Positions 13,000 to 30,746 of a stretch of 30,746 bases of DNA are shown one piece after another (the first letter of the stretch is position 1; each line of letters opens with the position of its first letter). The stretch lies in IMG/VR virus record IMGVR_UViG_3300012936_004484, positions 1 through 30,746 of that record, one strand, 5' to 3'. Source of the DNA: a virus. Both the position numbers and the translations under genes were made by a program. The notes below the pieces were generated by a model. That model was not told the origin of the DNA and ran no database searches. It saw nothing but the letters and a program-made list of their open reading frames with translations.

Positions 13000-13018
13000 C
13001 ATTAAATGGAAAAGAGTT

Positions 13019-15778: not shown

Positions 15779-16126
15779 ATGGATGAGAGACTCGAAAAAG
15801 CACTTGAATTTGCAAATTATCGTATTACCTTAGGTAATCAAAAAAGAAATATCAGATCTCGTATGGAAGTGTTACAAGCAATACACTATAATGCGGGTAG
15901 TTTTATTGCTAATCCAACAACTATAAGTTTTATTAATACTTTGATTAGCCTAGGCAAAAAGACAGCAGTTGTTATTGATACAAAAGATAATCCTATAGAA
16001 ATAGATGATCTTAAAGATTTTCAAAATTCTTTGGTTGATGCTTATTACAATGCCAGTAACGAATACAAAGTACAAATGGACAAAGTTAAAAAATCACGTA
16101 ATATTAAGAAAATTATGGATTGGTAA
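15779..16126 (+). CDS. Conserved small phage protein of unknown function (115 aa)
   Basis: A short, soluble, mostly helical protein (MDERLEKALEFANYRITLGNQKRNI...) with basic C-terminus ending KKSRNIKKIMDW. A middle beta-like piece (KKTAVVIDTKDNPIEI) is followed by another helix. It resembles small proteins of similar length found in the late region of marine T4-like phages, but I know no function for them. It sits first behind the composite promoter with the strong AAGGAGA site, so it should be well expressed. Its TAA overlaps the next ATG (TAATG). It could be a minor virion or assembly protein rather than part of the sugar pathway. Confidence 0.55.
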   Translation: MDERLEKALEFANYRITLGNQKRNIRSRMEVLQAIHYNAGSFIANPTTISFINTLISLGKKTAVVIDTKDNPIEIDDLKDFQNSLVDAYYNASNEYKVQMDKVKKSRNIKKIMDW

Positions 16127-17034
16127 TGTCTGGTAAAGAAGAAGATAAAGGCATTTGTTTTTTTGCCTACAACAATGAAGAAATAGACTATGTTCAATTA
16201 GCTCATATTGCCGCTGGTTATGTTAAAGCCAATATGAGTAATAACAAAACTTGTTTGATTACTGACAAAGGTACATACAGTTATTTTGAAAAAAGTGTAG
16301 ATAAAGATTTTCATGATGCATGTTTTGATCACGTGGTATTGACGGATGTTGAAAATGCTCCAAATCCTAGGCGTCATTATGATAGTCCTTGGACTGAATT
16401 TACTGCACAATTTAATAACAGTAACAAACATAAAATTTTTGAATATACTCCATTTGAAAAAACATTACTATTAGATATAGATTACATTGTCAAGAATAAT
16501 TTTTATGATTATATTTTTGACAGTGAATTTCCATTGGCAATGCATAGAGAATCACAATACTTACAGTATGAACCTCCGTATATGAATGAGATTACACTAG
16601 CAGATGGGGGCATTCATCATTGGTGGAGCACTGTGATTTATTTTGATCAAAGTGTTGAAAGTAAAACATTTTTTGATACTTGGGAACATGTAAAAGATAA
16701 TTGGGATTATTATCATTTATTATATCAATTTCCTCCAGCATTGTTTAGAACAGATTTTTGTGTAAGTATAGCATGTCATTTATTAAACGGGTATAACGAA
16801 AATAATTTTGTGCATGATTTTTTAGGGACAAAAATGAGAAACATGGATCAAAAAGATGAACTACATGAAATCAAAAGTTTAAATGATTGGATATTTTTAA
16901 GTCATGTGAGGAAAGAAGTTTGGAAAAATATTTTAGTAAGAAATCAGGACCTTAATATCCATGTGATGAATAAACGTGCTTTAACTAGACACGCAACACC
17001 TATTATAGAATCTCTAAAGGAAGAAATCTTATGA
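16126..17034 (+). CDS. GT-A-fold glycosyltransferase-like protein 1 (302 aa)
   Basis: I take ATG 16126, which overlaps the upstream stop as TAATG, rather than TTG 16120. The N-terminus (GICFFAYNNEEIDYVQLAHIAAGYV, then CLITDKGTY) looks like a nucleotide-sugar-binding Rossmann-like half. TPFEKTLLLDIDYIV carries a DxD pair, Asp117 and Asp119, the metal/nucleotide-sugar site of GT-A enzymes (GT8-like in layout). Trp/His-rich segments follow (GGIHHWWSTVIYFD). The protein has no signal peptide or membrane segment, so it acts in the cytoplasm. It is a clear sister of the next gene, sharing the TPFEK(T/S) box. Donor and acceptor are unknown. Family assignment is by motif, not close homology. Confidence 0.6.
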   Translation: MSGKEEDKGICFFAYNNEEIDYVQLAHIAAGYVKANMSNNKTCLITDKGTYSYFEKSVDKDFHDACFDHVVLTDVENAPNPRRHYDSPWTEFTAQFNNSNKHKIFEYTPFEKTLLLDIDYIVKNNFYDYIFDSEFPLAMHRESQYLQYEPPYMNEITLADGGIHHWWSTVIYFDQSVESKTFFDTWEHVKDNWDYYHLLYQFPPALFRTDFCVSIACHLLNGYNENNFVHDFLGTKMRNMDQKDELHEIKSLNDWIFLSHVRKEVWKNILVRNQDLNIHVMNKRALTRHATPIIESLKEEIL

Positions 17035-17909
17035 GCAGAGGATTTGTTATAATTGGTATAGATACAGATGTTGATTGTGTAAAGTATGCGGCTTCTCTTG
17101 CAATGAGTATAAAAAACTGTGACGCTGATAGTCAAGTGTGTTTGATTACCGATGAAAATTTTAAACTTTCTAAAAAATATATTGATTTAGATTGTTTTGA
17201 TTACACTGTAGAATTACCTTTTGGTAATACAGGACACAGAGATGGATTTCATGGCAGTAATTTTTGGCAAGTAGTGCATTGTACACCTTTTGAAAAATCA
17301 ATATATTTAGACTATGATATGTTGTTTGTTAATGTAGACATAGATTTGCTGTGGCAACAATTCTCAGACTATGAGGTTGCAATGCCGGTAATAGCAAGAA
17401 CTTATAGAAATGATATAGCTACTAAAACAAGACGTTTTGAAATAGAAAATACTTATCAGTTGCCTACATTCTACAGTCAAATATTTTATTTTAAAAATGA
17501 TAAATTTGCCTCAGATTGGTTTAAAATGGCTGATCCCTATTATCAAAATTGGCGTAGTGTATATGATGTATTTTTTAAAGATAAGAAACCAGAGTCATTT
17601 AATAAAAATATTATAAACAACTTAATTACACACTCTATGGATGAAACAGAAAATGTAAGCATAGTTCTCAATAATTTCTATGATATTGATGTTTGGAGTT
17701 CAAACTTGTGGAATGAAGATGTATCAGAAGAATGGACTGGATTACTCAATAATTGGTATAAAGACAATGGTGAAATTATAATTGAAAATAGTTTGATAAG
17801 TAGTGGAATCGTTCATTATAGAGATGAAAAATTTCTTACAAAAGAAATAGAAGATGTTATCACAAGTACTTTTAAAACAAATAAGCAAAGACAAGAAACA
17901 CAGTCATAA
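17031..17909 (+). CDS. GT-A-fold glycosyltransferase-like protein 2 (292 aa)
   Basis: Start ATG 17031 overlaps the upstream TGA (ATGA). The layout copies that of the preceding protein: an N-terminal GFVIIGIDTDVDCVKYAASLAMSI half, CLITDENF, then TPFEKSIYLDYDMLF with Asp94 and Asp96 as the DxD pair, then LPTFYSQIFYFKNDKFASDWF. This is the usual order of GT8-type transferases, where the acceptor site follows the DxD strand. The two genes probably come from an old duplication, as they differ widely outside the shared boxes. They may add consecutive sugars or act as a heteropair. No membrane segment is seen. The last 56 bases overlap the next gene. Confidence 0.6.
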   Translation: MSRGFVIIGIDTDVDCVKYAASLAMSIKNCDADSQVCLITDENFKLSKKYIDLDCFDYTVELPFGNTGHRDGFHGSNFWQVVHCTPFEKSIYLDYDMLFVNVDIDLLWQQFSDYEVAMPVIARTYRNDIATKTRRFEIENTYQLPTFYSQIFYFKNDKFASDWFKMADPYYQNWRSVYDVFFKDKKPESFNKNIINNLITHSMDETENVSIVLNNFYDIDVWSSNLWNEDVSEEWTGLLNNWYKDNGEIIIENSLISSGIVHYRDEKFLTKEIEDVITSTFKTNKQRQETQS

Positions 17910-18870
17910 ATTTTTTGTTTATTTTGACGAGTGGTCTGGTTTTATACAGGCTATAACTAGTAAACCAAATAAAAAAATTATGCACCCTCATATTGTTACA
18001 GACGATCCTATTTGTTCTAAGTTAATGCAAGGAACCATTAGTACTAAAAAATATCTAGTTGCAGAATTTTTAGAAGGTATGAAATTAGTGCAAAAAGACA
18101 AGCACATTAGAATTAGAAAAGCAGAAGAACAGCTTACTAAACTTAAAGAGATTTCGCACACAACAGAATCTGATATCAATGTAATACTTTATCTTCTTGA
18201 TTATAAGATGGAAATTAATGTTAAAAGTGAATTGATATACAAATTAAGTGGAAAACAACAAAACTCAAAGATTGTTGTAAATCAAAAAAGAGATTATGAT
18301 AATCTTCAATTTTTTCTTACTGCTAAGAATAATCCAATGAATTTGCTTGCAAACATTGAAATAGATATAATAGAATTATTAGAGGCAGGATACAAAATAA
18401 TTGATTTATCAAATCTCAAGAATAAAATTGAACTTAAAAATATTGATATTCTGACCAAACGTATTTTTAAAACATATGGGATAAAATATAAAAATAATTA
18501 TCTCAGTCCTGACTATGGATATAGAGTAACTAATAAACGTAGACATATAAAAATATTAGATAAAACTTGGTCAGATCCAACAGCATTTAGTGTAAGTCCG
18601 AGTACCCAAGGTTGGATCTTACGTAGTAATTTTGTAAACCCAAATGAGTACAAAATATACAAAGATATAAAGATATTTTTAACAACAGAAGATCCAAATG
18701 CTATGCTTGATAGAATAATTATACCATACGAAAAAGTAGGATACAATCAAGAGTGTATTGTTAAAACCAAAGTCGATCCAACTGACTGTAAGATATTAAT
18801 CGGAGAAGAAGGAAGGAACATCGACTTTAAATTTGAGGAAATAGAATATGTCAAACCTGGTCAGTATTAA
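17854..18870 (+). CDS. Conserved phage protein of unknown function (338 aa)
   Basis: No function recognised. ATG 17854 lies 56 bases inside the previous gene, an unusually long overlap here; no later in-frame ATG occurs before the well-folded-looking HKFFVYFDEWSGFIQAI stretch, which has the look of a short beta-rich N-terminal domain. A Lys/Glu-rich helical piece follows (IRKAEEQLTKLKEI), then beta-rich parts rich in Lys, Ile and Asn (RRHIKILDKTW, GWILRSNF, YKDIKIFLTTEDPNAM), and an acidic end (IDFKFEEIEYVKPGQY). No signal peptide, membrane helix or Cys motif is seen. It lies between transferase-like genes, so it might be an acceptor, scaffold or structural protein. I would not rule out a virion component. 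Confidence 0.45.
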   Translation: MLSQVLLKQISKDKKHSHKFFVYFDEWSGFIQAITSKPNKKIMHPHIVTDDPICSKLMQGTISTKKYLVAEFLEGMKLVQKDKHIRIRKAEEQLTKLKEISHTTESDINVILYLLDYKMEINVKSELIYKLSGKQQNSKIVVNQKRDYDNLQFFLTAKNNPMNLLANIEIDIIELLEAGYKIIDLSNLKNKIELKNIDILTKRIFKTYGIKYKNNYLSPDYGYRVTNKRRHIKILDKTWSDPTAFSVSPSTQGWILRSNFVNPNEYKIYKDIKIFLTTEDPNAMLDRIIIPYEKVGYNQECIVKTKVDPTDCKILIGEEGRNIDFKFEEIEYVKPGQY

Positions 18871-19828
18871 CGACTTTGATATAGTTTACATTAGTTATGA
18901 CGAACCTAACGCAGATGAAAACTATGCTGATTTATTAGAAAAATGCCCTTGGGCAAAACGTAGTCACGGAGTATGGGGCAGTGATGCCGCACACAAAGCC
19001 GCGGCGGCAATGAGTGAAACAGAACGTTTTATTACTGTTGATGCTGATAATATTGTACTTGATGATTTTTTTAATATTGAACTTGACATGGATAAAATTG
19101 GTGCTAATCATGTAATTAGTTTTGCCGCCAAAAACATTGTAAATGGATTAGTTTATGGCAATGGCGGTATTAAAATGTGGCCCGTTGAAGTTGTTAATGC
19201 GATGCGTACACATGAAGCGGCACCAGAAAGTGATAAAGCGGCTCAAGTAGACTTTTGTTGGAATATACAATATGTACAAATGAACAATTGGTACAGTTGG
19301 GTATACAATAACGGTAGTCCACTACAGGCATGGAGAGCTGGTTTCCGTGAAGGTGTCAAAATGGGTCTAGAAGGCGGAGATGTTGTTGATCCTAGTAAAC
19401 TAAAAGATATTTTTAGAGAAAATTACAGGCGTCTTATGGTATGGATGACTGTGGGTGAAGATATAGAAAACGGATTATGGGCAATATACGGTGCTAGATT
19501 AGGCTGTCATATGACAAATATTTTACGTCATGAATGGGATTGGAAAAATGTTAGAGATTTTGACTGGCTTAGTGATTATTTTAATAATGAACTTGCTCCG
19601 CAATTTAAAGGTACTGACCAAATGTGTCCTAGAACAGGAATGCAATGGGATAGCACTAAGCTCAAGAATGAAACTGTAAGACTAGGTGATGATCTAAGAG
19701 GTAAACTAGATTTAGAAATTGCTGACATTGGCGTAGCGGGTAGCCGTTTTTTCAAAACTGTGTATCGCAATCCTAGTAGATTAGGACCACAGATCAGAGA
19801 AGAACAAGTCAATGACAGTATTGGATAA
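18848..19828 (+). CDS. Glycosyltransferase-like protein 3 with DADN motif (326 aa)
   Basis: ATG 18848 overlaps the upstream gene by 23 bases. The start (FDIVYISYDEPNADENYADLL) and KRSHGVWGSDAAHKAAAAM, followed by RFITVDADNIVLDDFF with Asp65, Asp67 and Asn68, match a family frequent in marine T4-like phages that looks like a GT-A nucleotidyl/glycosyl transferase domain. The second half (NGLVYGNGGIKMWP, DFCWNIQYVQMNNWYSWVYN, ENGLWAIYGARLGCHM) is Trp/Asn-rich and has no match I can name. It is cytoplasmic in appearance. It differs from the two preceding sister proteins in sequence and DxD context, so it probably has another donor or acceptor. Activity is inferred from motif and context. Confidence 0.5.
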   Translation: MSNLVSINDFDIVYISYDEPNADENYADLLEKCPWAKRSHGVWGSDAAHKAAAAMSETERFITVDADNIVLDDFFNIELDMDKIGANHVISFAAKNIVNGLVYGNGGIKMWPVEVVNAMRTHEAAPESDKAAQVDFCWNIQYVQMNNWYSWVYNNGSPLQAWRAGFREGVKMGLEGGDVVDPSKLKDIFRENYRRLMVWMTVGEDIENGLWAIYGARLGCHMTNILRHEWDWKNVRDFDWLSDYFNNELAPQFKGTDQMCPRTGMQWDSTKLKNETVRLGDDLRGKLDLEIADIGVAGSRFFKTVYRNPSRLGPQIREEQVNDSIG

Positions 19829-20594
19829 AACTGTCTTAGTTACAGGAGGATTCGATCCATTACACAGTGGTCATATAAATTATTTCAAATGTGCTAGACA
19901 ATTAGGTGATAAATTAGTAGTAGGGGTTAACAGTGATGAATGGCTATCTCGTAAAAAAGGTAGAAGTTTTATGCCTTTTGAAGAACGTAAAATCATTATA
20001 GAAAATTTGGAGATGGTAGATGAGGTTATTAGTTTCAATGATAAAGATGGTACTGCAACTGAGGCTATTGAACAAGTTAAAGAAAAAAATCCCGGATCAA
20101 AAATTATCTTCGCAAATGGCGGCGACAGAAAGAAAGACAACATACCAGAAGAAAATGATGATGGAGTAGAGTTTGTTTTTGGTGTAGGCGGTACACACAA
20201 AATTAATAGTAGCAGTTGGATATTAGACAATTGGAAAGCACCTAAAATAAACAGAGATTGGGGATATTACAGAGAATTATACAATGGTACAGACTTCCGA
20301 GTTAAAGAATTAGTTATTGCACCACACACCAGATTAAGTATGCAAAGACATGAACATAGAAGTGAAACTTGGAACATAGTACATGGTAAAGCAAGTATTA
20401 AAATGAATCACAGAGACGGAAATCCATTTGACGGCTGTGCTGTATATCAATTACACCCAAACAATCCAGTAGATGTTCCTAAACGTACATGGCATCAAGG
20501 CTGTAACGAAACAGATAAACCTGCTCATATAGTTGAAATATGGAAAGGTAAAACTGAGCTGTTAACTGAAGATGATATAGAGAGATTAGAATGA
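19812..20594 (+). CDS. Cytidylyltransferase-like / cupin fusion protein (260 aa)
   Basis: Residues 1-150 form a nucleotidyltransferase of the RfaE/glycerol-3-phosphate cytidylyltransferase type: TGGFDPLHSGHINYF holds the HxxH signature (His18, His21), followed by VGVNSDEWL, the FMPFEERK segment and INSSSWIL near the usual ISST position. Such domains join a sugar- or polyol-phosphate to CMP or AMP. Residues about 155-260 form a cupin resembling mannose-6-phosphate isomerase type II/ManC C-terminal domains: SMQRHEHRSETWNIVHG with His180, His182 and Glu185, and His228 in TWHQG as likely metal ligands. Activation and isomerisation of one sugar-phosphate in one chain is the simplest reading. Start ATG 19812 overlaps upstream by 17 bases; its stop overlaps the next ATG. 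Confidence 0.75.
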   Translation: MTVLDKTVLVTGGFDPLHSGHINYFKCARQLGDKLVVGVNSDEWLSRKKGRSFMPFEERKIIIENLEMVDEVISFNDKDGTATEAIEQVKEKNPGSKIIFANGGDRKKDNIPEENDDGVEFVFGVGGTHKINSSSWILDNWKAPKINRDWGYYRELYNGTDFRVKELVIAPHTRLSMQRHEHRSETWNIVHGKASIKMNHRDGNPFDGCAVYQLHPNNPVDVPKRTWHQGCNETDKPAHIVEIWKGKTELLTEDDIERLE

Positions 20595-22339
20595 AATCTA
20601 TAAACGATATTGATTGGGAAAAAGAAAAATACGATGTTATCAGTAGTAATCTGTCTAACAGCAAAAAAATGAAAACCCTTTTAGACAGCAAAGGTTGTGG
20701 TTTTTGTTTGGCAAAATGGACACAGGTGACCATGCACTTGGGCACAGGACTAACACACAGTTGCCATCACCCTAATCCACATAAAATTCCAATTGATGAA
20801 ATAAAAAAGAATCCTGGTGCATTACATAATACAGCATACAAAAAGAAACAGCGTAAAGCAATGCTCAATGGAGAGCGTCCAGCTGAGTGTGATTACTGCT
20901 GGCGTGTAGAAGATGCCGCAAAGGAATCAGGAAATGAAAATTACAGTGATAGAGTATTTAAAAGTGTAGCTTCATTTAGTGTTTACGAACATGATAAAAT
21001 TGTGAATCTTACTGGTGACGAAGATGATATATATCCAACATATTTAGAAGTGAGTTTTAGTAATGTATGCAATTTTAAATGCTCTTATTGTAATCCAAAT
21101 TTTAGTAGTAAATGGGTCCAAGAAATTAAACAACATGGTTGGTATGTGTTACCAGAAGAAGGATATAATTTTACCCCCAATGTACAAATACCTGAATCTG
21201 AGGATAATCCATACACAGAGGCATTTTGGAAATGGTTCCCCGAAGCAAAAAAACATTTACATACACTTAGAATCACAGGTGGCGAGCCTTTGATGAGCAA
21301 ACACACTTTTAAATTATTGGAAGATATTAGAGATAATCCAACACCCAATATGGAACTTAGTATTAATACCAATGGAAATGCTCCTGCTAAGAACTGGAAA
21401 CGATTTTTAGAACTTATCGAAAACATATGTAATCTTAACAAAGTACAAAAATTCACACTGTTTATAAGTTGCGAAGGCTGGGGACAAAGATCTGAATACA
21501 GTAGAGATGGTCAAGATTTTAATGAATTTTTAGGTAATGTTGAAGAATTTTTAAGAACTACACATAACTCAAGACTTGTATTCATGTCTGCATTTAATTT
21601 ATTCGCAGTCAGTAATGTCATGCCTTTTTTAAAGTATGTTTTACAGTTGAAAAAAGAATTTAACTATAATGGTTTACTGCACTGGTTCGAGGAAAAGACC
21701 AATGGACAAACTACTAGAGTTTTGACAAAACATAATTGGGTATTAGATGGCGTTTTAGATGAAAGTTTAGATGATAGGCCGGTGCGTTCATTGACAGAAC
21801 GTAAGAATCTTGCTAAACGCAATCCAAATGAACGTGTTGGTATAGATATAGCATATGTAAGATATCCTGATTTCTTAGATGTAGGTGTAGTTGGCACAGA
21901 AGAATTACTACTAGATCATTTGATCCCAGCCTTAGATTTCATGTATAAGAATAATGAAAATACTGAGTGGACCAAATTCCAAGGTTTTACTGATTGGGAG
22001 GCAGGAAAGTTAAAGAGAATAGTTGAAATGTTGGTTTGGCAATTAGAAAAAGGAACTACAAAATGGGAAAAAAAGAGTCGATTAGCTAGAGAAAGATTCT
22101 ATGCTTTTGTTAATGAATACGATAAAAGAAGAGGCAAAAACTTTTTAAAAACATTTCCTGAAATGAAAAATTTTTACAATTTTTGTAAACAATTACACGA
22201 CGAATCGCATGTTACCAAAGACGGTGATACTGAATATTATCATAATGATGAAAACGGTAATAGAGTTAGACAAGTTGCAGTAGATGCAAAACATTTCTAC
22301 TCTAAACCAGTTAAATCAAAAGGTTATTCAAAAGCATGA
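20591..22339 (+). CDS. Radical SAM protein 1 with N-terminal Cys-rich domain (582 aa)
   Basis: The radical SAM core has CNFKCSYC (Cys160, Cys164, Cys167; CxxxCxxC binds the [4Fe-4S] cluster that cleaves S-adenosylmethionine) and RITGGEPL near residue 228, the SAM-binding GGEP motif. Before it lies a second Cys set: Cys36 and Cys39 (GCGFCLAKW), Cys58 (SCHHP) and Cys100/Cys103 (ECDYCW), which looks like a twitch/SPASM-type auxiliary cluster site placed ahead of the core instead of behind it. The last 200 residues are charged and helical. Marine phages and bacteria carry related 'twitch-domain' proteins, with substrates unknown to me. ATGA overlaps at both ends place it tightly in the gene run. 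It could act on a sugar nucleotide or on a peptide. Confidence 0.75.
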   Translation: MKSINDIDWEKEKYDVISSNLSNSKKMKTLLDSKGCGFCLAKWTQVTMHLGTGLTHSCHHPNPHKIPIDEIKKNPGALHNTAYKKKQRKAMLNGERPAECDYCWRVEDAAKESGNENYSDRVFKSVASFSVYEHDKIVNLTGDEDDIYPTYLEVSFSNVCNFKCSYCNPNFSSKWVQEIKQHGWYVLPEEGYNFTPNVQIPESEDNPYTEAFWKWFPEAKKHLHTLRITGGEPLMSKHTFKLLEDIRDNPTPNMELSINTNGNAPAKNWKRFLELIENICNLNKVQKFTLFISCEGWGQRSEYSRDGQDFNEFLGNVEEFLRTTHNSRLVFMSAFNLFAVSNVMPFLKYVLQLKKEFNYNGLLHWFEEKTNGQTTRVLTKHNWVLDGVLDESLDDRPVRSLTERKNLAKRNPNERVGIDIAYVRYPDFLDVGVVGTEELLLDHLIPALDFMYKNNENTEWTKFQGFTDWEAGKLKRIVEMLVWQLEKGTTKWEKKSRLARERFYAFVNEYDKRRGKNFLKTFPEMKNFYNFCKQLHDESHVTKDGDTEYYHNDENGNRVRQVAVDAKHFYSKPVKSKGYSKA

Positions 22340-23019
22340 CAATGGGTAAAAATACACTATATGTTGGTGGTTGTAGTTTTAGCGACTATTTTGAAAACAA
22401 TAAAGTTTGTTGGGGTGAAATTCTCGCGGAAAAATTAAACATGAATTATAATCATGATGCTGTTCTAACAAGTGGTAGCAATGATAGAATATGGCGTATA
22501 TTAACAGACAAAATAATAAAAAAAGAAATAACAAAAGATGATAAAGTATTCATACAATATACAATGCCTACTAGAAAAGAATTTGCAAGTTGGAAAAATC
22601 CTCGTGGACCAAAAGGTCATATGTTTAACACACAGGATGAAGATTTGTATCTTTTAAATTTTAAAGATCAATGTTATACTTGGCATGAAGAACCTGTTGC
22701 AAATAAATTTTTGAAACAATATGAAGAATATTTTTCAATAGATGAATATGATATGCACATTTTTAATCAAAGACAATATCAGTTTCAAACATTTTTAGCA
22801 TATCATAATATAGATGCCTACATGCTAACATTGAACGCTTATGTAATTTGGAATGATAATCATTTTTTGTCTGCTTATTTCAAAAAAAGATTATACAGTG
22901 ATAATAAATTTGGTTATGCAGAAGATGAGAGATATGCAGAAAATGATCCAAATCATTTAAGTGAAAGTGGTCACAATAAATTAGCTAATAGGCTGTATAC
23001 ATGGATGACTGATAGATGA
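22336..23019 (+). CDS. SGNH/GDSL-hydrolase-like protein 1 (227 aa)
   Basis: Residues 8-18 (LYVGGCSFSDY) give the block I Ser (Ser14) of SGNH hydrolases, SGSNDR around residues 46-51 resembles the glycine/asparagine oxyanion blocks, and DPNHLSESGHNKLA gives Asp204 and His207 in the DxxH of block V. The set is complete enough for a Ser-His-Asp triad. SGNH enzymes remove or transfer acyl groups, often acetate on polysaccharide. There is no signal peptide, so this one should work in the cytoplasm, fitting acyl transfer to or from a nucleotide-sugar or a protein. It sits between the two radical SAM genes with ATGA overlaps on both sides. Sequence between the blocks is unlike well-known members, so the call is by motif. 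Confidence 0.55.
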   Translation: MTMGKNTLYVGGCSFSDYFENNKVCWGEILAEKLNMNYNHDAVLTSGSNDRIWRILTDKIIKKEITKDDKVFIQYTMPTRKEFASWKNPRGPKGHMFNTQDEDLYLLNFKDQCYTWHEEPVANKFLKQYEEYFSIDEYDMHIFNQRQYQFQTFLAYHNIDAYMLTLNAYVIWNDNHFLSAYFKKRLYSDNKFGYAEDERYAENDPNHLSESGHNKLANRLYTWMTDR

Positions 23020-24314
23020 AACTAGATGACCTGCCTGCAAACAATTTATTTTGTCCTTTGCCATGGGTAGGTGCACATATTATGCCTACTGGCAAGTTCA
23101 GCTATTGTTGTGTGCAAAATCAGTTTGATGAAGATCTATTAAAAGCTGGCAATCTCAGAGAACAAACAATACAACAAGCTAGAAACAATTCTTGGTCAAA
23201 CAAACTAAGAAAAGATTTAATAAATGGAATACAACATAAAAGTTGTAGAGATTGTTGGAATTTAGAAAATCAAGGGATCAAAAGTTTAAGACAACACTAT
23301 CATAATCAATGGTTTAAAGATTATGGTTATGCTGATACTTTCCAACTCAATAGTGACGGGACACTAGATGATCAAAACATAATATATTGGGACGTAAGGC
23401 AAACTAATTTGTGCAACATGAATTGTATAATGTGTGGCCCAGATTATAGTAGTATATGGAACAGAGATATATTAAAAAGCCAAAACAAGCCAATACCAAA
23501 AGGCGGAGTCATCGATGCTGTAGAAGTAAGCAAAGATAACATACTTGATATAATCAAAAATAATATAGATAAAGTTTACAAGTTTTACTTTGCAGGCGGC
23601 GAGCCTCTTGTGAGTCCAATGCATTGGGCAATATTAGAAGAACTAGTAGAAAGAGAACTTTTCAATGTAGAACTTGCATACAATACTAATTTACTAAAGT
23701 TAGATTACAAAGGCAAAAATGCAATTGATTATTGGAAAAAATTTAACGTTGTATATGTTGGTTGTAGTATTGATGCAATAGGACAAAGAGCAGAAGTTGT
23801 TAGGACTGGAACTAATTGGGAAACTATAAACAATAATTTTATTAAATTAGATAAAGAGTTATATAATGCAAAAGCACTTAATATTACAACCAGTAATATG
23901 ACAATAGGTGGATTAGATGAAACTATTGCATGGGCAAAAGGGTTTAAATGGAACAACGAATATGGCACTCTGCTAGCAAATAATCTAGTATATCATCCTG
24001 AATGGCTGAGTATAAATGTATTACCAAGAGATGTCAAAGAAGAAACATGGCGTAAGATTAAACCAGCATTAAAAACTCTTGAAAACAAACAAGCTCTTGA
24101 ACAAATAGAAAACGAATTATGGAAAGAAATAGATGCTACTGATTTTAGGAGACTTAGTTTGCGATTTGTTAAACACATTCAGTGGACAAGCAGTATACGT
24201 AATCAAGATCCTGATAGTGTAGTATTAAGTGGTTTTCCTGAACTTTGGGATTGGTATGACGAATATCTTACTGAGTTTAAAACACTGACCCATGATCAAG
24301 CTGAGGCACTATAA
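23016..24314 (+). CDS. Radical SAM protein 2 with N-terminal Cys-rich domain (432 aa)
   Basis: CNMNCIMC (Cys133, Cys137, Cys140) is the radical SAM cluster motif and AGGEP (residues 193-197) the SAM-binding motif; NTNLLKL and GCSIDAIGQRAE follow in the order expected for the core barrel. As in the other radical SAM protein here, a Cys set precedes the core: Cys13 (FCPLPW), Cys31/Cys32 (YCCVQN) and Cys77/Cys80 (SCRDCW), with PTGKFSYCC in the manner of SPASM-type cluster domains. The FCxLPW...G...CC pattern is known from twitch-type radical SAM proteins of marine phages. The two proteins differ in length by 150 residues, so they probably have different substrates or act in sequence. Its TAA overlaps the next ATG (TAATG). 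Confidence 0.75.
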   Translation: MKLDDLPANNLFCPLPWVGAHIMPTGKFSYCCVQNQFDEDLLKAGNLREQTIQQARNNSWSNKLRKDLINGIQHKSCRDCWNLENQGIKSLRQHYHNQWFKDYGYADTFQLNSDGTLDDQNIIYWDVRQTNLCNMNCIMCGPDYSSIWNRDILKSQNKPIPKGGVIDAVEVSKDNILDIIKNNIDKVYKFYFAGGEPLVSPMHWAILEELVERELFNVELAYNTNLLKLDYKGKNAIDYWKKFNVVYVGCSIDAIGQRAEVVRTGTNWETINNNFIKLDKELYNAKALNITTSNMTIGGLDETIAWAKGFKWNNEYGTLLANNLVYHPEWLSINVLPRDVKEETWRKIKPALKTLENKQALEQIENELWKEIDATDFRRLSLRFVKHIQWTSSIRNQDPDSVVLSGFPELWDWYDEYLTEFKTLTHDQAEAL

Positions 24315-25438
24315 TGAAACTAGGATGGATAGGATTAGGTAAATGTGGATTACCGATAGCAGAACGTATAGCACAAACATGTGATGTAGTTGCACATGAT
24401 ATAATCCAAAAAGATACAGCTATATATACACATGATGTAAAAAATTTACTAAACACTGATATAATTTTTGTTTTAGTAGAAACGCCACATGTTGATAAAA
24501 CACTGGACGGTAGTTTACCCATAGAGTTACATACTGTAGATGACTATGATTATACAGCATTAGGCAGTGTGTTACTAACATTGGCAAATTACAGCTACCA
24601 AGGCATTGTAGTTGTTAGTAGCACTGTAAGTCCAAGCACAACAAAAAAACTTGCAACAAAATATAGTGATTTAAAAATTGTTTACATGCCTGTAATGATA
24701 CACATTGGAAGTGTAGCTGATAATTTTGTATCTGCACCAGTGTATTTTATTGGAGGCAAATATGAGTATACCAAACAAGTCGAAGACTGTATAAGAAAAT
24801 TTGTTACAGGTAATATTTTGCACGGCACCTATGAAGAAGTTGAAATGTACAAAATGTTTGGTAATATGTTTAGCAGTGTAAAGATTGCTTTCGCAAACAC
24901 CATAAGTGAAATGATTGAATATGGTAATTTTAATGCCAGCAGTTGGAATGTTATAAATGCTTTACTGCATGAAACAAAAAGTTTCAACAGCACTGCCTAT
25001 CTAACACCTGGCAGTGGCAACGGCGGTCCATGTCATCCTAGAGATGGTGTTGTGTTGACTTGGCTTACAGATAAGTTAAAAATGCAAAGTCACTTGTTAA
25101 AAGATGTAACACAAGTCAGACAGGATCAAGCACTAGCACTTGCAAAATATCTAGTAAGATACCAATTACCTATTGTAATATTAGGTAAAAGTTTTAAACA
25201 AGGAGTAGATCTAACTGTAGGAAGCTACAGTGTACTAGTAGGTGAATATTGTAAACAACTTGGAGCAAATATTCACTATGATAAATCCTGGGCAGAAGAC
25301 AGTGTAGTACTAATTGCCCATCCAGATAAAAAATTACTAGACAAATACAAACCCACTAAAAATAGCATAATAGTGGATTTATGGAATATGAATATACCAG
25401 GTGCAAAAGTTTGGGGAAATAATTTGCATGAAACATAA
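24314..25438 (+). CDS. UDP-glucose/GDP-mannose dehydrogenase-like protein lacking the catalytic Glu (374 aa)
   Basis: The N-terminal Rossmann motif is GLGKCG (Gly7, Gly9, Gly12). SSTVSPST keeps Thr104, the KMFGN helix keeps Lys180 and Asn184, and GNGGPCHPRDG keeps the nucleophile Cys240 and Asp244. The C-terminal domain start LGKSFKQGVDL is also present. But where the family has NPEFLREGS, this protein reads MPVMIHIGS: the conserved Glu is Val127. That Glu takes part in the second oxidation/thioester hydrolysis step in UDP-glucose dehydrogenase. The protein is also shorter than usual (about 390-450). It may oxidise another sugar nucleotide, stop at an aldehyde, or be inactive. Start ATG overlaps the previous stop. 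Confidence 0.7.
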   Translation: MKLGWIGLGKCGLPIAERIAQTCDVVAHDIIQKDTAIYTHDVKNLLNTDIIFVLVETPHVDKTLDGSLPIELHTVDDYDYTALGSVLLTLANYSYQGIVVVSSTVSPSTTKKLATKYSDLKIVYMPVMIHIGSVADNFVSAPVYFIGGKYEYTKQVEDCIRKFVTGNILHGTYEEVEMYKMFGNMFSSVKIAFANTISEMIEYGNFNASSWNVINALLHETKSFNSTAYLTPGSGNGGPCHPRDGVVLTWLTDKLKMQSHLLKDVTQVRQDQALALAKYLVRYQLPIVILGKSFKQGVDLTVGSYSVLVGEYCKQLGANIHYDKSWAEDSVVLIAHPDKKLLDKYKPTKNSIIVDLWNMNIPGAKVWGNNLHET

Positions 25439-26261
25439 GGGAATTGTAATATTTGGAGCAGGTGCATTCAGTCATGCACATTTGAGATGTTTAAAAGAAT
25501 TAGGAATAACTGAATGTATATTAGCTAAAAATACACCCTGGACCAGCCAACAACAACATAAATTTGCCGACGATCATCCTCTTATCTCATTTACATTTGA
25601 TAACAAACCAGATGTTACAGATAAAATAGTACACATAGTAACACCCAGTGATACACATTCGGAATTACTTTATCGTTATAGCAGATTATCTAGTAAAATT
25701 TTTATTGAAAAACCAAGTGTTCTTTACAATAAAGATATAGATTTTAATTATGCTAATTTTATTTCTAACACTGTATATCAGAATGATTGGTTAGCACAAA
25801 TACAAAATCATCGATCTCGTAAATACAAACCAAGTATAATACATTTTACATACGATGTCAAGAACAAAAATCAAATTGATCATATAACTGAAATATGGAG
25901 TCACATTATCAATCTTGTTTCTTTGTGGTATAAACCTAATTGTAAAATTCATATAAACAGTGAATTAGTTAAAAACAACGCAAGAAATATTAGTTGTATT
26001 ATTGACAATGAACTCGAACTTAGTATATCCACTTCAAGTGGTTTAGTAGAAAAAAGCAAGTGGCAGTTGCAGATAGATAATGAAGAATTTACCAGTGAGG
26101 AACTTGGTGGTAGTTTGCTTATAAATACATTAAGTACTATGTTAACTAACAAATTACCTTTGACTGATTGGTACAATGCTAGTTGGCTTATACACAGATT
26201 TAGATTGTTGTCAAGTCCAGAGATATTTGACAACCAATTTTTACTAAATTATAGGAAATGA
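25428..26261 (+). CDS. Gfo/Idh/MocA-type oxidoreductase-like protein (277 aa)
   Basis: I use ATG 25428 (MKHKGIVIFGAGAF), because the longer start at 25401 would add nine residues ahead of the first strand of the NAD-binding fold and overlap more with the previous gene. GAGAFSHAHLRCL is the dinucleotide loop. VTPSDTHSELL and FIEKPS (Glu94-Lys95-Pro96) are hallmark motifs of the family, with Lys95 the likely catalytic Lys. ITEIWSHIINLV resembles the GSHxxD region of the second domain. The protein is short for the family (usually 320-380), with a reduced C-terminal domain. Such enzymes oxidise or reduce sugar-nucleotide hydroxyls, for example at C3 before transamination. No aminotransferase is in the window. 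Substrate unknown. Confidence 0.65.
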   Translation: MKHKGIVIFGAGAFSHAHLRCLKELGITECILAKNTPWTSQQQHKFADDHPLISFTFDNKPDVTDKIVHIVTPSDTHSELLYRYSRLSSKIFIEKPSVLYNKDIDFNYANFISNTVYQNDWLAQIQNHRSRKYKPSIIHFTYDVKNKNQIDHITEIWSHIINLVSLWYKPNCKIHINSELVKNNARNISCIIDNELELSISTSSGLVEKSKWQLQIDNEEFTSEELGGSLLINTLSTMLTNKLPLTDWYNASWLIHRFRLLSSPEIFDNQFLLNYRK

Positions 26262-26262
26262 A

Positions 26263-26985
26263 ATGGATATTGATGTTAATTATATAAAAGCAAATGGGTA
26301 CGCTGTTATACCAAACTTCTTGAATACAGAAGAAGTGACTGCACTACAAAATTTATGTGATGCAACTCCCGTAGCCATGGGTGAGACATGGTATAAAAAG
26401 TGGAAAGCAAATGGAAGATTTGACGAGTATGAACATTGGTGGTCAGAATCTGTCAGAGATCATCCGTTAACAGTTTCGATCAAGGAAAAAATTCGTCCAA
26501 TGGCTGATAAATGTTTTGGTGAAGGCAACTATGAACAGTATGGTGGTGATTTTAAAGTAACGAATTCAGGCAGTAATTTTATGTATTGCCATTTTGACAC
26601 TCCCTATAGACATGATCGCTGGGCAAATGATTTCAGCGATGACATCAAAGGTATGCAATTTGGAATTGCACTGGACAAGTTTGATAATGAAAGCGGTGGA
26701 ACAAGAGTGTTGCCTGGCAGTCATAAAAAAGTATATCACAAAGAAGACATGGACGCTGGTCGACACAATGATGAATTTTTACGTGATGGTATCACAATGG
26801 ATCTTGAACCGGGCGGATTATTTTGCTATCACAGCAGAACCATGCACAGCACCATGCCTAATCTAACAGATAAACCACGTAGGTTAATGCTTATTTTGCA
26901 CTTGTGGAATGATCCAACATTCAAACAAGAATTAGCAGATATAGAATCAAAAGAATATGAAAAAAATCAAGAAATTAAATCCTGA
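26263..26985 (+). CDS. Phytanoyl-CoA-dioxygenase (PhyH)-family Fe(II)/2-oxoglutarate oxygenase (240 aa)
   Basis: The iron-binding facial triad is intact: His110 and Asp112 in CHFDTPY, and His195 in MHSTMPN; Arg206 in KPRRLML is placed to bind 2-oxoglutarate. Early NGYAVIPNFLNTEEV is the typical PhyH start, and ESGGTRVLPGSHKK is the usual loop before the distal His. Length fits small bacterial PhyH-like enzymes. Members hydroxylate, halogenate or rearrange small molecules or lipids, so here it may hydroxylate a sugar nucleotide or its acyl group. Iron and 2-oxoglutarate would come from the host. The ATG begins one base after the upstream stop, and the 3' end overlaps the next gene by 29 bases. 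Confidence 0.8.
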   Translation: MDIDVNYIKANGYAVIPNFLNTEEVTALQNLCDATPVAMGETWYKKWKANGRFDEYEHWWSESVRDHPLTVSIKEKIRPMADKCFGEGNYEQYGGDFKVTNSGSNFMYCHFDTPYRHDRWANDFSDDIKGMQFGIALDKFDNESGGTRVLPGSHKKVYHKEDMDAGRHNDEFLRDGITMDLEPGGLFCYHSRTMHSTMPNLTDKPRRLMLILHLWNDPTFKQELADIESKEYEKNQEIKS

Positions 26986-27337
26986 AATTAATCCTGTTAC
27001 ATTTAAAGATGGTAGAGGTATTATTCAGACATATTATCCTGAACAGTACAACATAGTAGAATGGAACTATATTGTAACACTCAAAGGTGCTGTTAGAGGA
27101 CATCACTATCACAAAGAATTTGATGAGTACATTATGTTTGTAGAAGGAGAAGGTGTGTACACAGAAATTACCAATGGAGAAGAATTAGTAACTCCTGTTA
27201 GTGCTGGAGATTGCATATACCTGCCTATGCATGTACCTCATACATTTTATCCAACTGCAGACTGTAAAATGATTGCAATGATTACCAAGCGTTGGAATGA
27301 TTGTGAGGAACCAATAACAAGGGTAGAAATAAAATGA
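26957..27337 (+). CDS. Cupin, sugar 3,4-ketoisomerase/RmlC-like (126 aa)
   Basis: A single-domain cupin. VRGHHYHKEFDEYIMFVEGEG holds the first cupin motif (His49, His50, His52, Glu57), and AGDCIYLPMHVPHTFYP the second, with His near residue 96. Arrangement resembles WxcM/FdtA-type dTDP-sugar 3,4-ketoisomerases and RmlC-like epimerases, which shift carbonyl or stereocentres on 4-keto-6-deoxy sugar nucleotides. It overlaps the PhyH gene by 29 bases and its TGA overlaps the next ATG. In context it would process a keto-sugar made by one of the SDR or Gfo/Idh proteins. It could also be a non-catalytic metal-cupin; motif evidence alone does not separate these. Confidence 0.65.
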   Translation: MKKIKKLNPEINPVTFKDGRGIIQTYYPEQYNIVEWNYIVTLKGAVRGHHYHKEFDEYIMFVEGEGVYTEITNGEELVTPVSAGDCIYLPMHVPHTFYPTADCKMIAMITKRWNDCEEPITRVEIK

Positions 27338-28233
27338 AACGAATAGCAATAACAGGCGGAGCAGGCTACATAGGTTGTAGGCTCTGTGAATATTTTTTAC
27401 AGCAAGGTCATACAGTAGATTGTATAGACTGGCTTAAATGGGGAATTGACCCAATACTCAATATTGTTGACCATGAAAACTTTTACTTACACAATATTGA
27501 TATTTGTTCACCTGAAGTTGAGCCAGTATTAAAAAATGCTGATGTAGTAATACACTTGGCTGGTATTATTGGATTTCCTGCATGCAATGCAGAGCCAGAC
27601 CTCGCATACAGAATTAACATAGAAGGCACTAAAAGAGTTGTTGAAGCAAGTGCTGATAAACCTTTTGTATATGCAAGTACCGGCAGTGTATATGGAGCAC
27701 TAGATAGTGTGTGTACCGAAGAAGCAGAAGCCAATCCAATTAGTACATATAGTGTTTACAAACTAGCAGGTGAACGTATGCTAGACAATAATGCAGTTAT
27801 AATAAGACCAGCTACAGCGTTTGGCGTTAGCAACAGATTACGTACTGACTTGTTGATAAATGATTTTGTACGCAAAGCCTGTATTGGTGAACATATGGTT
27901 TTATTCGAAGGACATTTCAAAAGAACATTTATTAGTGTTAATGATTTGGTTCGTTCATTTGCTTGGACTATAGAAAAATACGATCAAATGAAAGGCGGTA
28001 TCTGGAATGTTGGAGATCAAACACTTAATCATACCAAGTTAGAGATTTGTGAAACCATACAAAAACATATACCAACTTGGACATTTGAAAATAACACAAC
28101 TCTAGCACATGATCAGGATGGAAGAAATTATTTTGTCGATTATACAAAAATTAGAAACTTAGGATTTACAGCAAGTGAATCATTGGATCAAGGTATAAAG
28201 AATCTAATTAAGGTATACAAGGCGGTAGCATGA
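27334..28233 (+). CDS. Extended SDR: NAD-dependent nucleotide-sugar epimerase/dehydratase (299 aa)
   Basis: TGGAGYIG (residues 7-14) is the NAD-binding glycine motif. VIHLAGIIGFP, ASTGSVYG and YSVYK (Tyr139, Lys143) give the catalytic Ser/Thr-Tyr-Lys set of UDP-glucose-4-epimerase-like extended SDRs. RRTFI-like substrate loop residues appear as KRTFISVNDLVRSF, and WNVGDQT is the usual late NxG motif. Length (299) fits. It probably epimerises, or dehydrates, a sugar nucleotide; substrate cannot be told. Starts and ends with ATGA overlaps, so it is translated together with the cupin before and the SGNH-like protein after. Confidence 0.8.
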   Translation: MKRIAITGGAGYIGCRLCEYFLQQGHTVDCIDWLKWGIDPILNIVDHENFYLHNIDICSPEVEPVLKNADVVIHLAGIIGFPACNAEPDLAYRINIEGTKRVVEASADKPFVYASTGSVYGALDSVCTEEAEANPISTYSVYKLAGERMLDNNAVIIRPATAFGVSNRLRTDLLINDFVRKACIGEHMVLFEGHFKRTFISVNDLVRSFAWTIEKYDQMKGGIWNVGDQTLNHTKLEICETIQKHIPTWTFENNTTLAHDQDGRNYFVDYTKIRNLGFTASESLDQGIKNLIKVYKAVA

Positions 28234-29138
28234 AACTTATTTTTGATGGTGATAGTTGGACTTTTGGATGTGAAATCGTAGATCCTTCACTTCGCAAAAA
28301 ATATCCCGATTGGAATTGGAAACTTGATAAATCTTGGTATGAAGAAAATGACGAATATAGAACAAAAAGAATTTATCCTTACTTTATGTCGCAAGCTCTA
28401 GATTGCGATTATGTTAATTTATCCTGGACTGGAGATGATAATAGAACTATATTAGAAAGAACTATGACGTTTCTGAGTCGAGAATATATTACAAAAGGAA
28501 AATCAACTGACGACTTGTTTGTAATCATAGGATGGTCAAGTCCGGAAAGAAATAGTTTCTGGTGGAAAAGTAAAAATCTATCATTGCCATTTATATTGAG
28601 ACCTAATATTCCTGATTTTAAAGATCCTAAAATGAAAGATATATGGGAATTATATGTTCAGTATATGTGGCATGCAGAAGAATATCTTCCAAGGCATGTG
28701 TCTACTGTGGTACAATTTCAAAATTTTTGTAATGTTTACAACATTAAATGGTTATGTTTTGATGCATTTTATCATACTCCAGATTGCAAAGGCGACAACA
28801 TGGGTAATCTTCATCCTGATGATTGGAAATCTTTTGGGAACCTTCATCCTACTGAGTGGGAAGATATAAACATGTTAAAACAGTTAGAAAAAATTGACAG
28901 AGCTGGACATAAAGAGTTTGTTAATGGAAAAAGACAATTTGAAGATAACGATTATAAGTCACTGTGGAACACAGTCGATCCCGTTAGATTTTACAAAAAA
29001 GATCAACCTAACAATACTTTTAGAAGTTTTATACAAGCAGATACAACTAATTTAATCGGATGGCATCCTAGCCCTATTGGACATGAATTATGGGCAAATG
29101 AATTATTAAGATACATAAAGGAAAACAGTTTATTGTGA
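28230..29138 (+). CDS. SGNH/GDSL-hydrolase-like protein 2, with an altered triad (302 aa)
   Basis: FDGDSWTFGCEI (Ser9) is block I of SGNH hydrolases, and WTGDDNRTI (Asn71) resembles the oxyanion block. Near the end, IGWHPSPIGHELWANEL is the block V region with His279, but the Asp normally three residues earlier is Ile276, so only a Ser-His pair is evident. The mid-part is Trp- and Asp-rich, and carries a short duplication (GNLHPDDW, then GNLHPTEW, near residues 191-210). No signal peptide is present, so it acts in the cytoplasm if active. A role in moving acyl groups on the sugar is plausible. It could instead be a binding protein of the SGNH fold. Confidence 0.5.
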   Translation: MKLIFDGDSWTFGCEIVDPSLRKKYPDWNWKLDKSWYEENDEYRTKRIYPYFMSQALDCDYVNLSWTGDDNRTILERTMTFLSREYITKGKSTDDLFVIIGWSSPERNSFWWKSKNLSLPFILRPNIPDFKDPKMKDIWELYVQYMWHAEEYLPRHVSTVVQFQNFCNVYNIKWLCFDAFYHTPDCKGDNMGNLHPDDWKSFGNLHPTEWEDINMLKQLEKIDRAGHKEFVNGKRQFEDNDYKSLWNTVDPVRFYKKDQPNNTFRSFIQADTTNLIGWHPSPIGHELWANELLRYIKENSLL

Positions 29139-30022
29139 AAAAAATAGTTTTAACAGGAGGTAGCGGATTCCTACTGAGTAATCTACAACAAGATTATATT
29201 GCTGATTACATAGCACCTCGCAGTAGTGAAGTTAATTGGATAACGGGTAAAGGCGTAAGCACATTACCTAATCAACCAGATGTTTTTGTACACAGTGCGG
29301 CTATATACGGCGGATTAGTCTTCAATCAGAAATATCCAGAACGCATACTGCTAGATAACATGCGTATGTCTATAAATGTTTTTGATTACATCTTGACATG
29401 TAAGCCAAAAAAAGTTATTATAATAGGTAGTGCATGTAGCTATCCAGGTAATGCAACAGGCTTACTCACTGAAGATATGATTGGAAGTGGTAGAATGGAG
29501 TCAACTGTTGAACTATATGCTATTAATAAACTTTGGCAACTAGCGGCTAGTGAGCGTCTATTAGACAATTGGACACATCTTGTTCTAGCAAACATGTATG
29601 GTCCAAACGATCATACAAGTTTGGAAAAGTCGCACGTAACCGTAGCATTAATACAAAAAATATTAAAAGCTAAAAAGGAAAATAGAGATGTAAAATTACT
29701 GGGTACAGGAGAACCTTTACGTAGCTTGGTATATGTAAAAGATGTGTGTGCAGTTATTGATTATTTTATAAACAATGATGTCCCCAATGGGGCATATAAT
29801 ATTGGGCATGATAAAGGTTTAAGTATCAAAGCAATGGCAGAAGCTATTGCACAAACAGTTGGATATACAGGAAATATATTATGGGGAGATGCAAAGGATA
29901 ATGGTGCTATGGTAAAAGTATTAGACTATACGAAACTTGACACTGTATTTCCCAACAGACCAAAAACTGACCTTAAAAAAGGTTTAAAAAAAGCAGTAGA
30001 GCAATTCACATGGAATACTTAA
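29135..30022 (+). CDS. GDP-L-fucose-synthase-like extended SDR (295 aa)
   Basis: Starts at GTG 29135 in a GTGA overlap. HSAAIYGGLVFNQKYPERI, then IIGSACSYPG, and RMESTVELYAINK (Tyr128, Lys132) follow the pattern of GDP-fucose synthase (VGGI...YP, SSCIYP, EPTNEPYAIAK), the 3,5-epimerase/4-reductase that finishes GDP-L-fucose from the GDP-4-keto-6-deoxymannose made by GMD. The NAD motif is TGGSGFLL: the third Gly of GGxGxxG is Leu, a small oddity. Late YNIGHDKGLSI is the usual SDR NIG motif. No GMD is in the window, so the substrate may be supplied by the host, by another phage gene, or be a different 4-keto-6-deoxy sugar. Confidence 0.75.
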   Translation: MKKIVLTGGSGFLLSNLQQDYIADYIAPRSSEVNWITGKGVSTLPNQPDVFVHSAAIYGGLVFNQKYPERILLDNMRMSINVFDYILTCKPKKVIIIGSACSYPGNATGLLTEDMIGSGRMESTVELYAINKLWQLAASERLLDNWTHLVLANMYGPNDHTSLEKSHVTVALIQKILKAKKENRDVKLLGTGEPLRSLVYVKDVCAVIDYFINNDVPNGAYNIGHDKGLSIKAMAEAIAQTVGYTGNILWGDAKDNGAMVKVLDYTKLDTVFPNRPKTDLKKGLKKAVEQFTWNT

Positions 30023-30746
30023 CAGAAGTTGTTTTTACAAGAATAAAAAAATTACCAGTATGGACAGAAGCATTTAATGGTACAGAAAAGATCACAAATG
30101 ATTGGAGAATGTGGTGGAATGGTTACAATCTTGATAAGCTAAAAGAACATTTAAACAAACATATGCCAAGTTTGCTAGCCAATCAAACACTTCGTGAAAT
30201 TCATGTACCTTTAATAGAAGCAGTACCTGCCAGAACATACTGCGAATGTGTATTGCTAGATGAAGATAAAATGTTTTACTATCCTATAAGTTTGCATTGG
30301 TTTGACAAGTTTGTTGAAGGTATTGTCGAAAACACGATAGAGATACCAGATTATATAATTAAAAAAATTAACAATAAAACTGCAAAAATATTATTGTATC
30401 ATCCTAGAGAGCAATGGGGTCACAGTGCTTGGCAAAAAATGATTAACGATATATCAGCAAAATACAAATTAACACAGGATAATTTTGTTGTAAGCTGTAA
30501 TAATCCTAAATTAGAAAATATTAATAATGTGCCTTTGATGCATAATCAAAGGATAGTTCAAGATCCAGCATATTTTGATACTACTGATAAAATGTGGGCA
30601 GAACTATCTAGATTAATAAAAGATCCTCAGCCTCCAAATGAAATTAACGGAAAAGGTAAAAGACCTTGGAAATTTGTATGTTTGATGCGAAGACCAAACA
30701 CAAATAGATGGGCTATAAGTGCCGAATTAATGGAGTATAGGCTCAA
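30010..30746 (+). CDS. Probable glycosyltransferase-like protein (3'-truncated)
   Basis: ATG 30010 lies 13 bases inside the preceding gene and the frame stays open to the window edge, giving about 245 residues. The protein begins MEYLTEVVFTRIKKLPVW. It has ILLYHPREQWGH near residue 130 and VVSCNNPKLENI further on. Near the edge, RPWKFVCLMRRPNTNRW resembles the (K)xFxCLNRxPRxHR motif I recall from phage and viral transferase-like proteins that act on surface sugars. The gene is directly coupled to the GDP-fucose-synthase-like gene, so a fucosyltransferase-type role is possible, but only from position. No membrane segment in the visible part. Confidence 0.45.
   Translation, partial: MEYLTEVVFTRIKKLPVWTEAFNGTEKITNDWRMWWNGYNLDKLKEHLNKHMPSLLANQTLREIHVPLIEAVPARTYCECVLLDEDKMFYYPISLHWFDKFVEGIVENTIEIPDYIIKKINNKTAKILLYHPREQWGHSAWQKMINDISAKYKLTQDNFVVSCNNPKLENINNVPLMHNQRIVQDPAYFDTTDKMWAELSRLIKDPQPPNEINGKGKRPWKFVCLMRRPNTNRWAISAELMEYRL

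Follow-up and report, generated by a model that had tools for sequence, protein, structure and literature searches.

A predicted sugar-tailoring island rich in twitch radical-SAM genes behind the tail-fibre genes of an uncultured jumbo myovirus lineage

What would a phage make with a long run of sugar-modifying genes set directly behind its tail-fibre genes, and onto which acceptor would it transfer the product? The question is raised by IMG/VR record IMGVR_UViG_3300012936_004484, a linear fragment of 30,746 bases that was analysed in its entirety and is referred to as the window. From position 15,779 to 30,744 it carries 17 open reading frames (ORFs) on a single strand, most of them overlapping the next and the last one cut by the record end (Table 1). 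An earlier annotation made from the letters alone (the sequence-only reading) had described a long sugar-tailoring run directly behind the tail genes, and this description holds: most of the families are supported by profile matches, and the first five genes form a head that is syntenic in every relative with the genes to compare. We propose that the tail-fibre operon carries at its 3' end an inserted glycan-tailoring island of two tiers, of which the window contains the portion nearest the promoter: an own sigma70-type promoter would drive a fixed head of putative glycosyltransferases, followed by interchangeable cassettes with an expanded family of twitch-domain radical-SAM genes.

The fixed head and its promoter

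With GT3 as the query, 268 encoding stretches were found in IMG/VR, of which 80 were retained. The order o115-GT1-GT2-u338-GT3, placed behind the fibre genes, was identical in 78 of the 78 loci holding o115, GT1 and GT3, which excludes chance for the head; the contigs of the remaining two loci end before o115/GT1. GT3 is the most conserved gene of the region, with 61-90% identity to the window copy across the set, versus 14-66% for u338. None of the three putative transferases gave a family match (for GT1 and GT2, in Pfam, PHROG or PDB profiles), yet each carries a DxD motif, in GT1 and GT2 as the only recognisable feature. This motif is always retained in GT1 and GT3, whereas 46 of 77 GT2 sequences are without an intact copy, and GT2 may be a partner subunit or a dead enzyme in part of the lineage. 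In a model comparison, the N-terminal half of GT3 was of GT-A type, with the best match to B4GALNT1 (Z 10.1, root-mean-square deviation 3.0 over 139 residues). Other glycosyltransferases and also nucleotidyltransferases score close behind, so that the fold by itself leaves the function unfixed; by modelled fold and DxD motif together, GT3 is placed among GT-A proteins as a putative glycosyltransferase. No isolate relative of GT1, GT3, o115 or the radical-SAM gene rS1 was found among 50,697 phage records at the sensitivity used. A cellular origin of GT3 and of one radical-SAM member was not retained as a candidate, as close-match patterns on genome_contigs, a method that detects close kin only, gave no relative.

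At the position of u338, an ORF of 317-362 aa was present in 77 of 77 loci tested. Significant fold matches of the u338 model were obtained only to phage proteins without names; its matches in the PDB were weak (best Z 4.8) and were excluded from the evidence. The protein is a candidate virion protein or glycan acceptor.

The near-consensus promoter ahead of o115 is the top-scoring forward site of the region. A sigma70-type site with at least 10/12 matches precedes o115 in 52 of 53 non-redundant loci (at least 11/12 in 47 of 53). These loci are mutually related, and their own neighbouring genes served as control: sites of at least 10/12 were found there in 0-2 of 41-55 cases, and in 2.3% of random windows. 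In one 198-kb relative, similar sites stand before a nucleotide-sugar epimerase, an exonuclease, nuclease-type genes, a QueE-like gene and a late sigma factor, and also before the portal gene. A late-transcription sigma factor under its own sigma70-type promoter lies at L132:12290-13174 in a relative (phrog_12791, E 6e-83). A T4-type late promoter, TATAAATA at 15734, was first taken as proof of late expression and then rejected, as the relatives show it to be a variant of a less fixed stretch within the conserved sigma70 promoter. A late-like 7/8 match at the promoter was found in 68% of the loci, against 29% in shuffled sequence; given this enrichment, control may be dual. Judged by the promoter sequences, the island is probably a separate transcription unit that is switched on early.

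Radical-SAM genes and exchangeable cassettes behind the head

The cargo was surveyed in 54 non-redundant loci and the window, comprising 456 ORFs from GT3 onward in about 10 kb each. One family of twitch radical-SAM proteins accounts for 144 of these ORFs, spread over 46 loci and with the CxxxCxxC motif in all 144; besides GT3, no other cargo family exceeds 12 loci. The N-terminal twitch cysteines are conserved in the alignment of the family. Members of NF033640 (N_Twi_rSAM) occur in all 12 long contigs, with 6-14 above the curated cut-off in seven and fewer in the rest; rS1 and rS2 of the window score about 300 bits each against a cut-off of 170. For 61 of 81 members, the closest relative lies in another phage and not in the same genome, which points to an old expansion into distinct genes, not to fresh tandem copies. 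Profile relatives in the PDB are SkfB (peptide), viperin-type enzymes and cytosylglucuronate decarboxylase, and for the N-terminal cluster domain BtrN (aminocyclitol). In a sample of 95 proteins from two islands, 35 were radical-SAM proteins, accompanied by methyltransferase, carbamoyltransferase, aminotransferase, desaturase and oxygenase families, whose predicted function is small-molecule tailoring chemistry. For the twitch radical-SAM genes themselves, a chemistry on sugars or nucleotides is favoured.

By a simple hydropathy rule, 446 of the 456 ORFs are without a predicted membrane segment, and none was predicted in any of the 17 ORFs of the window. The flippase family PF01943 was absent from the 12 long contigs, and the membrane proteins of Gtr-type O-antigen conversion (GtrA flippase, bactoprenol GtrB and a membrane transferase) have no counterpart in the window run. 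With nearly all cargo soluble and no flippase, modified sugars would be built and transferred in the cytoplasm, and the sequence-only reading, which had seen no transporter or flippase and placed the transfer inside the cell, remains the natural one.

Several further gene types were noted in the relatives. Genes resembling dihydrofolate reductase (DHFR) and thymidylate synthase were seen by eye downstream of GT3, in eight loci each (e.g. L088:10975-11463, L047:11443-12306). An A-type iron-sulphur (Fe-S) carrier (PF01521) is encoded by two relatives, L101 and L102; the Fe-S scaffold IscU/NifU was found in none of 12. Next to nucleotidyltransferase genes, loci L139, L140, L144 and L145, found via SG2, contain several SGNH-like genes and repeated genes starting IAVC(F/I/L)SGQ.RTW, a family without a Pfam match. 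SGNH genes seem to be common in the relatives, to judge by DUF6071 matches and by families recognised by eye, a strict motif count being unusable.

For the window cassette itself, the enzymes named by the sequence-only reading were recovered by profile in the case of CTcup, the two radical-SAM proteins, UGDH, PhyH, the cupin and the two SDRs, and less firmly for the Gfo/Idh-like protein, which falls below cut-off, and for SG1 and SG2. In the latter two, the first and last SGNH blocks are present by motif only, Lipase_GDSL scores just E 0.1, and the label rests on these motifs and on DUF6071, a family without assigned function. Two genes of the run, o115 and u338, are not recognisable sugar genes, a correction to the sequence-only reading. 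The proposed co-conservation in relatives applies lineage-wide to the head and to the radical-SAM genes, for which 'paired' understates the family expansion; it does not apply to the sugar genes of the window. Downstream of GT3, with the window counted, UGDH was found in 7 loci, CTcup in 6, cup in 5 and SG1 in 3, and for Gfo, PhyH, SDR1, SG2 and SDR2 there was no relative in the 54 other non-redundant loci.

Elsewhere the cassette does recur. In L149, a diverged relative found via UGDH, the order CTcup, rS1, SG1, rS2, UGDH, Gfo, PhyH, cup, SDR1, SDR2, last gene is kept; an additional radical-SAM/SGNH-like pair, another PhyH gene and a gene for 489 aa are interposed, and SG2 is missing. From CTcup to SDR2, proteins of the window and L149 are 55-90% identical, but identity at four-fold sites reaches only about 29-64%, and about 20-65% over the cassette as a whole. 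Conserved proteins with strongly diverged four-fold sites indicate that the cassette has long been held under selection; recent horizontal transfer between the two phages is not supported, on the same grounds. The genes cup and SDR1 occur together in about 20 loci, adjacent or one to two genes apart, with CTcup upstream in six, and SG2 follows rS1 downstream in 11 of 13 loci from a broader set that has other SGNH-like genes as well. A pattern scan of viral contigs for PhyH gave no relative, though L149 has two, so that the scan misses true relatives. From gene order and divergence, the cassettes appear to be real pathway units, common to some relatives only.

Lineage, neighbouring genes and published parallels

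The left half of the record consists of the C-terminus of a baseplate wedge protein, a 3990-aa virion protein and three more genes of the structural operon (Table 1). The wedge and the virion protein are 26-44% identical to those of the jumbo myoviruses 121Q, PBECO4, GAP32, RaK2, Atu_ph07, PA5oct and SCTP-2. In PA5oct (Arenbergviridae), the wedge, giant virion and fibre genes stand in matching order, all annotated by electrospray ionisation tandem mass spectrometry (ESI-MS/MS); its operon stops after the fibre genes, small genes on the opposite strand come next, and neither the glycosyltransferase head nor the island is present at that position. The PA5oct record also contains no NF033640 match above cut-off. 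The structural context is thus secure and the island an addition relative to PA5oct. The sequence-only reading had pointed to the glycan genes of marine T4-like phages; judged by its baseplate and fibre proteins, the lineage is not an ordinary one of that kind but that of an uncultured jumbo myovirus, distant kin of PA5oct, RaK2 and SCTP-2. Its habitat is probably marine, by analogy with the published parallels. Many relatives have (YG)n tracts of variable length in fib388, others only an FGWG/YGWG motif; the tract was considered as a radical-SAM target and set aside, as it showed no clean link to radical-SAM number.

Table 1. Features of the window, all coordinates in bases of the record. E, expectation value; pLDDT, predicted local distance difference test; pTM, predicted template modelling score.
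Feature	Position	Strand	Evidence
Baseplate wedge protein, C-terminal part	2..1024	+	PHROG 10646 E 3e-77; ~40-44% identity to jumbo phages 121Q, GAP32, PBECO4
3990-aa virion structural protein	1024..12996	+	PHROG 10938 E 4e-157; PA5oct homologue annotated ESI-MS/MS
o3, small conserved structural-operon gene	12959..13618 (true start probably ~13019)	+	PHROG 11259 E 1e-56; syntenic in relatives
fib304, fibre/baseplate-type virion protein	13631..14545	+	46.6% identity over 72% of query to PA5oct virion protein annotated ESI-MS/MS
fib388, fibre-like, fast-evolving; (YG)6 tract 15338-15373	14546..15712	+	
Near-consensus sigma70-type promoter, TTGACA-18-TATAGT	15721..15750	+	11/12; within 66-base gap preceding o115
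o115, small head gene	15779..16126	+	syntenic in 78/78 loci
GT1, putative glycosyltransferase	16120..17034	+	DxD (LLLDIDYIV) in 79/79
GT2, GT1-like	17031..17909	+	DxD in 31/77
u338, beta-rich multi-domain protein, fast-evolving	17854..18870	+	model pLDDT 83.9, pTM 0.70
GT3, GT-A-fold putative glycosyltransferase	18848..19828	+	model pLDDT 85.7, pTM 0.86; DxD 81/81
CTcup, nucleotidyltransferase fused to mannose-P-isomerase-type cupin	19812..20594	+	PF01467 4e-15, PF01050 2.5e-19
rS1, twitch-domain radical SAM	20591..22339	+	NF033640 E 3e-89; CNFKCSYC, GGEP
SG1, SGNH-like	22336..23019	+	GCSF...HLSESG motifs; DUF6071 E 0.002
rS2, twitch-domain radical SAM	23016..24314	+	NF033640 E 1e-89; CNMNCIMC, GGEP
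UGDH-like nucleotide-sugar dehydrogenase, short form	24314..25438	+	PF00984 7e-16; catalytic-type Cys retained (GGPC)
Gfo/Idh-like oxidoreductase, weak assignment	25401..26261	+	PF01408 E 9e-4, below cut-off
PhyH-type Fe/2-oxoglutarate oxygenase	26263..26985	+	PF05721 E 3e-22; PDB relatives EvdO2, SptF
cup, single-domain cupin	26957..27337	+	PF07883 E 6e-9
SDR1, NAD-dependent epimerase/dehydratase-type	27334..28233	+	PF01370 E 5e-36; GGAGYIG, YSVYK
SG2, SGNH-like	28230..29138	+	DUF6071 E 1.4e-11; GDSW...HPSPIG
SDR2, GDP-fucose-synthase-like SDR	29135..30022	+	NF047922 E 7e-46, below cut-off; SDR/epimerase family match 4e-29
Last gene, cut by record end	30010..30744	+	49% to 478-aa protein L149:15257-16690; without Pfam family

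The sequence-only reading could match this combination of genes to no known pathway; published parallels exist in the host-recognition clusters of pelagimyophages (PMC7029224), and the kind of island is thus already known from marine myoviruses. The pelagimyophage clusters combine radical-SAM cassettes, rfaE and UDP-glucose dehydrogenase with fibres and glycosyltransferases; like the island described here, they are hypervariable and lie in the structural region beside the tail fibres, and glycosyltransferase, rfaE-like, UGDH-like and radical-SAM genes are common to both (PMC7029224). Unlike them, the present island belongs to a PA5oct/RaK2-like baseplate lineage, begins with a transferase head in fixed order behind a conserved sigma70-type promoter, and holds many more radical-SAM genes in each contig than the cassettes of that account. 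The host recognition cluster sits between VrlC and the neck gene gp14 in a Tevenvirinae-type genome. Here a giant virion protein precedes the fibres, the sequence stops short of the far border of the island, and the lineage is not ordinarily T4-like. With the lipopolysaccharide (LPS) or capsule clusters of cyanophage P-SSM2, the island shares SDR epimerases, cupins, nucleotidyltransferases and glycosyltransferases in one run, and with a second type of cyanophage cluster the 2-oxoglutarate oxygenases and cupins (PMC7824862). PfkB sugar kinases of those clusters were not seen here, and radical-SAM arrays are not described there, the word 'radical' being absent from the text. The T4-like marine viral genome TARA_ERS488813_N000010 has 12 radical-SAM genes, interpreted as Fe-S metabolism (PMC5332604), and resembles the present lineage as a large marine phage with many such genes and, given the two relatives with an A-type carrier, in this respect as well; in the accessible part of that source, the genes are not connected with a fibre locus or a glycosyltransferase head. 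This likeness, and that to a jumbo lineage of aquatic phages whose core includes four glycosyltransferase groups (PMC12619734), is by description and not by sequence. What appears to be new is the lineage, together with its fixed head, the promoter of that head and the extent to which the radical-SAM family has expanded; for the head, its promoter and the family size, no description was found in the accessible parts of the related literature.

A further parallel was found in Vibrio phage K566 (OZ196521; L115:11711-19450), where five twitch radical-SAM genes, two of them above the NCBIfam cut-off, share their stretch with two genes of the GT8 family and a weak GT4-like gene, a PagP-annotated gene lying nearby. 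Radical-SAM and glycosyltransferase genes are interleaved as in the present lineage, but with only five of the family. No relative of the baseplate protein was found in K566, and the same radical-SAM/glycosyltransferase link in a phage without it gives independent support for a role in sugar chemistry.

Predicted pathway and its acceptor

In the pathway that we propose, the nucleotidyltransferase-cupin would activate a sugar phosphate, which UGDH/Gfo would then oxidise, cupin/SDR epimerise or reduce and PhyH hydroxylate; further tailoring would probably be done by the twitch radical-SAM and SGNH-like proteins. All enzymes would be soluble and cytoplasmic, and GT1 and GT3 (with GT2) would move the product onto an acceptor reachable in the cytoplasm. 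That the island acts by such cytoplasmic tailoring and transfer, whatever its acceptor, we give somewhat better than an even chance. Several points weigh against it: acceptor, product, activities and the order of the steps are all predictions, the GT-A match of GT3 is generic and includes nucleotidyltransferases, DxD is lost from GT2 in most relatives, the place of u338 in the virion is a matter of candidacy, the PDB relatives of the radical-SAM family modify peptides as well as sugars and nucleosides, membrane segments were called by a simple rule, and a sigma70-type promoter equally fits early host-directed action.

As regards the acceptor, a phage-encoded one (a fibre-region protein or u338) falls just short of even probability and is slightly favoured over a precursor of the host envelope (LPS core or lipid-linked units). 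This preference stems from the fixed position of the head after the fibre genes, from a rapidly evolving u338 flanked by conserved transferases, and from the near-absence of membrane proteins. A specific form of it, in which the fixed head of the whole lineage attaches unusual, radical-SAM-tailored sugars to u338 or a fibre and swappable cassettes provide a phage-specific decoration of the virion, is unlikely. Remodelling of the host surface, by early addition to LPS core or lipid-linked sugars that would keep competing phages from adsorbing, or progeny from binding the cell that made them, is a serious if somewhat doubtful possibility. It agrees with a promoter of sigma70 type that is conserved and set apart from the fibre genes, with the placement of most other such promoters in one relative before replication, nuclease, late-sigma or nucleotide-sugar genes, and with a cargo that differs between relatives; for pelagimyophage and cyanophage clusters, modification of the host O-chain or capsule is the published hypothesis (PMC7029224, PMC7824862). 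However, the cargo is without flippase, polymerase or membrane glycosyltransferase, and a near-invariant transferase head would be odd if the acceptor were a variable host glycan.

Two alternatives place the target outside glycans. SPASM/twitch enzymes often act on peptides, and the similarity to SkfB, a peptide-thioether enzyme, together with the (YG)n tracts in many relatives, would fit radical-SAM genes that modify a phage peptide or protein, e.g. the tract of fib388 or u338, in the manner of ribosomally synthesised and post-translationally modified peptides, with the sugar genes as separate cargo. We regard this as improbable, since the same profile also matches BtrN and cytosylglucuronate decarboxylase, several radical-SAM-rich relatives are without (YG)n, the family accompanies glycosyltransferases in K566, and no precursor-peptide gene was noticed, without a systematic search for one. 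Phage glycosyltransferases are also known from DNA glucosylation, and the thymidylate-synthase-like and DHFR-like genes could point to modified phage DNA as substrate; these synthase genes resemble ordinary thymidylate synthesis, however, and no base hydroxylase or hydroxymethylase was noticed within the window, base-modification genes not having been searched genome-wide, which makes this the most remote of the explanations and a very improbable one.

Radical-SAM genes in marine phage genomes have been noticed before without a settled explanation. Here they predominate in an island that is fixed in its position and in its glycosyltransferase head and has a promoter of its own, and an unrelated Vibrio phage shares the link to glycosyltransferases, which offers a concrete hypothesis, a radical-SAM sugar chemistry of phages. 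It comes with handles for further work: GT3 as a marker of the lineage, K566 as a phage whose record is deposited, and the trio CTcup-cup-SDR1 as a compact enzyme set. If true, it would extend sugar chemistry by new reactions and give phages a new means of altering their own surface or that of the host.

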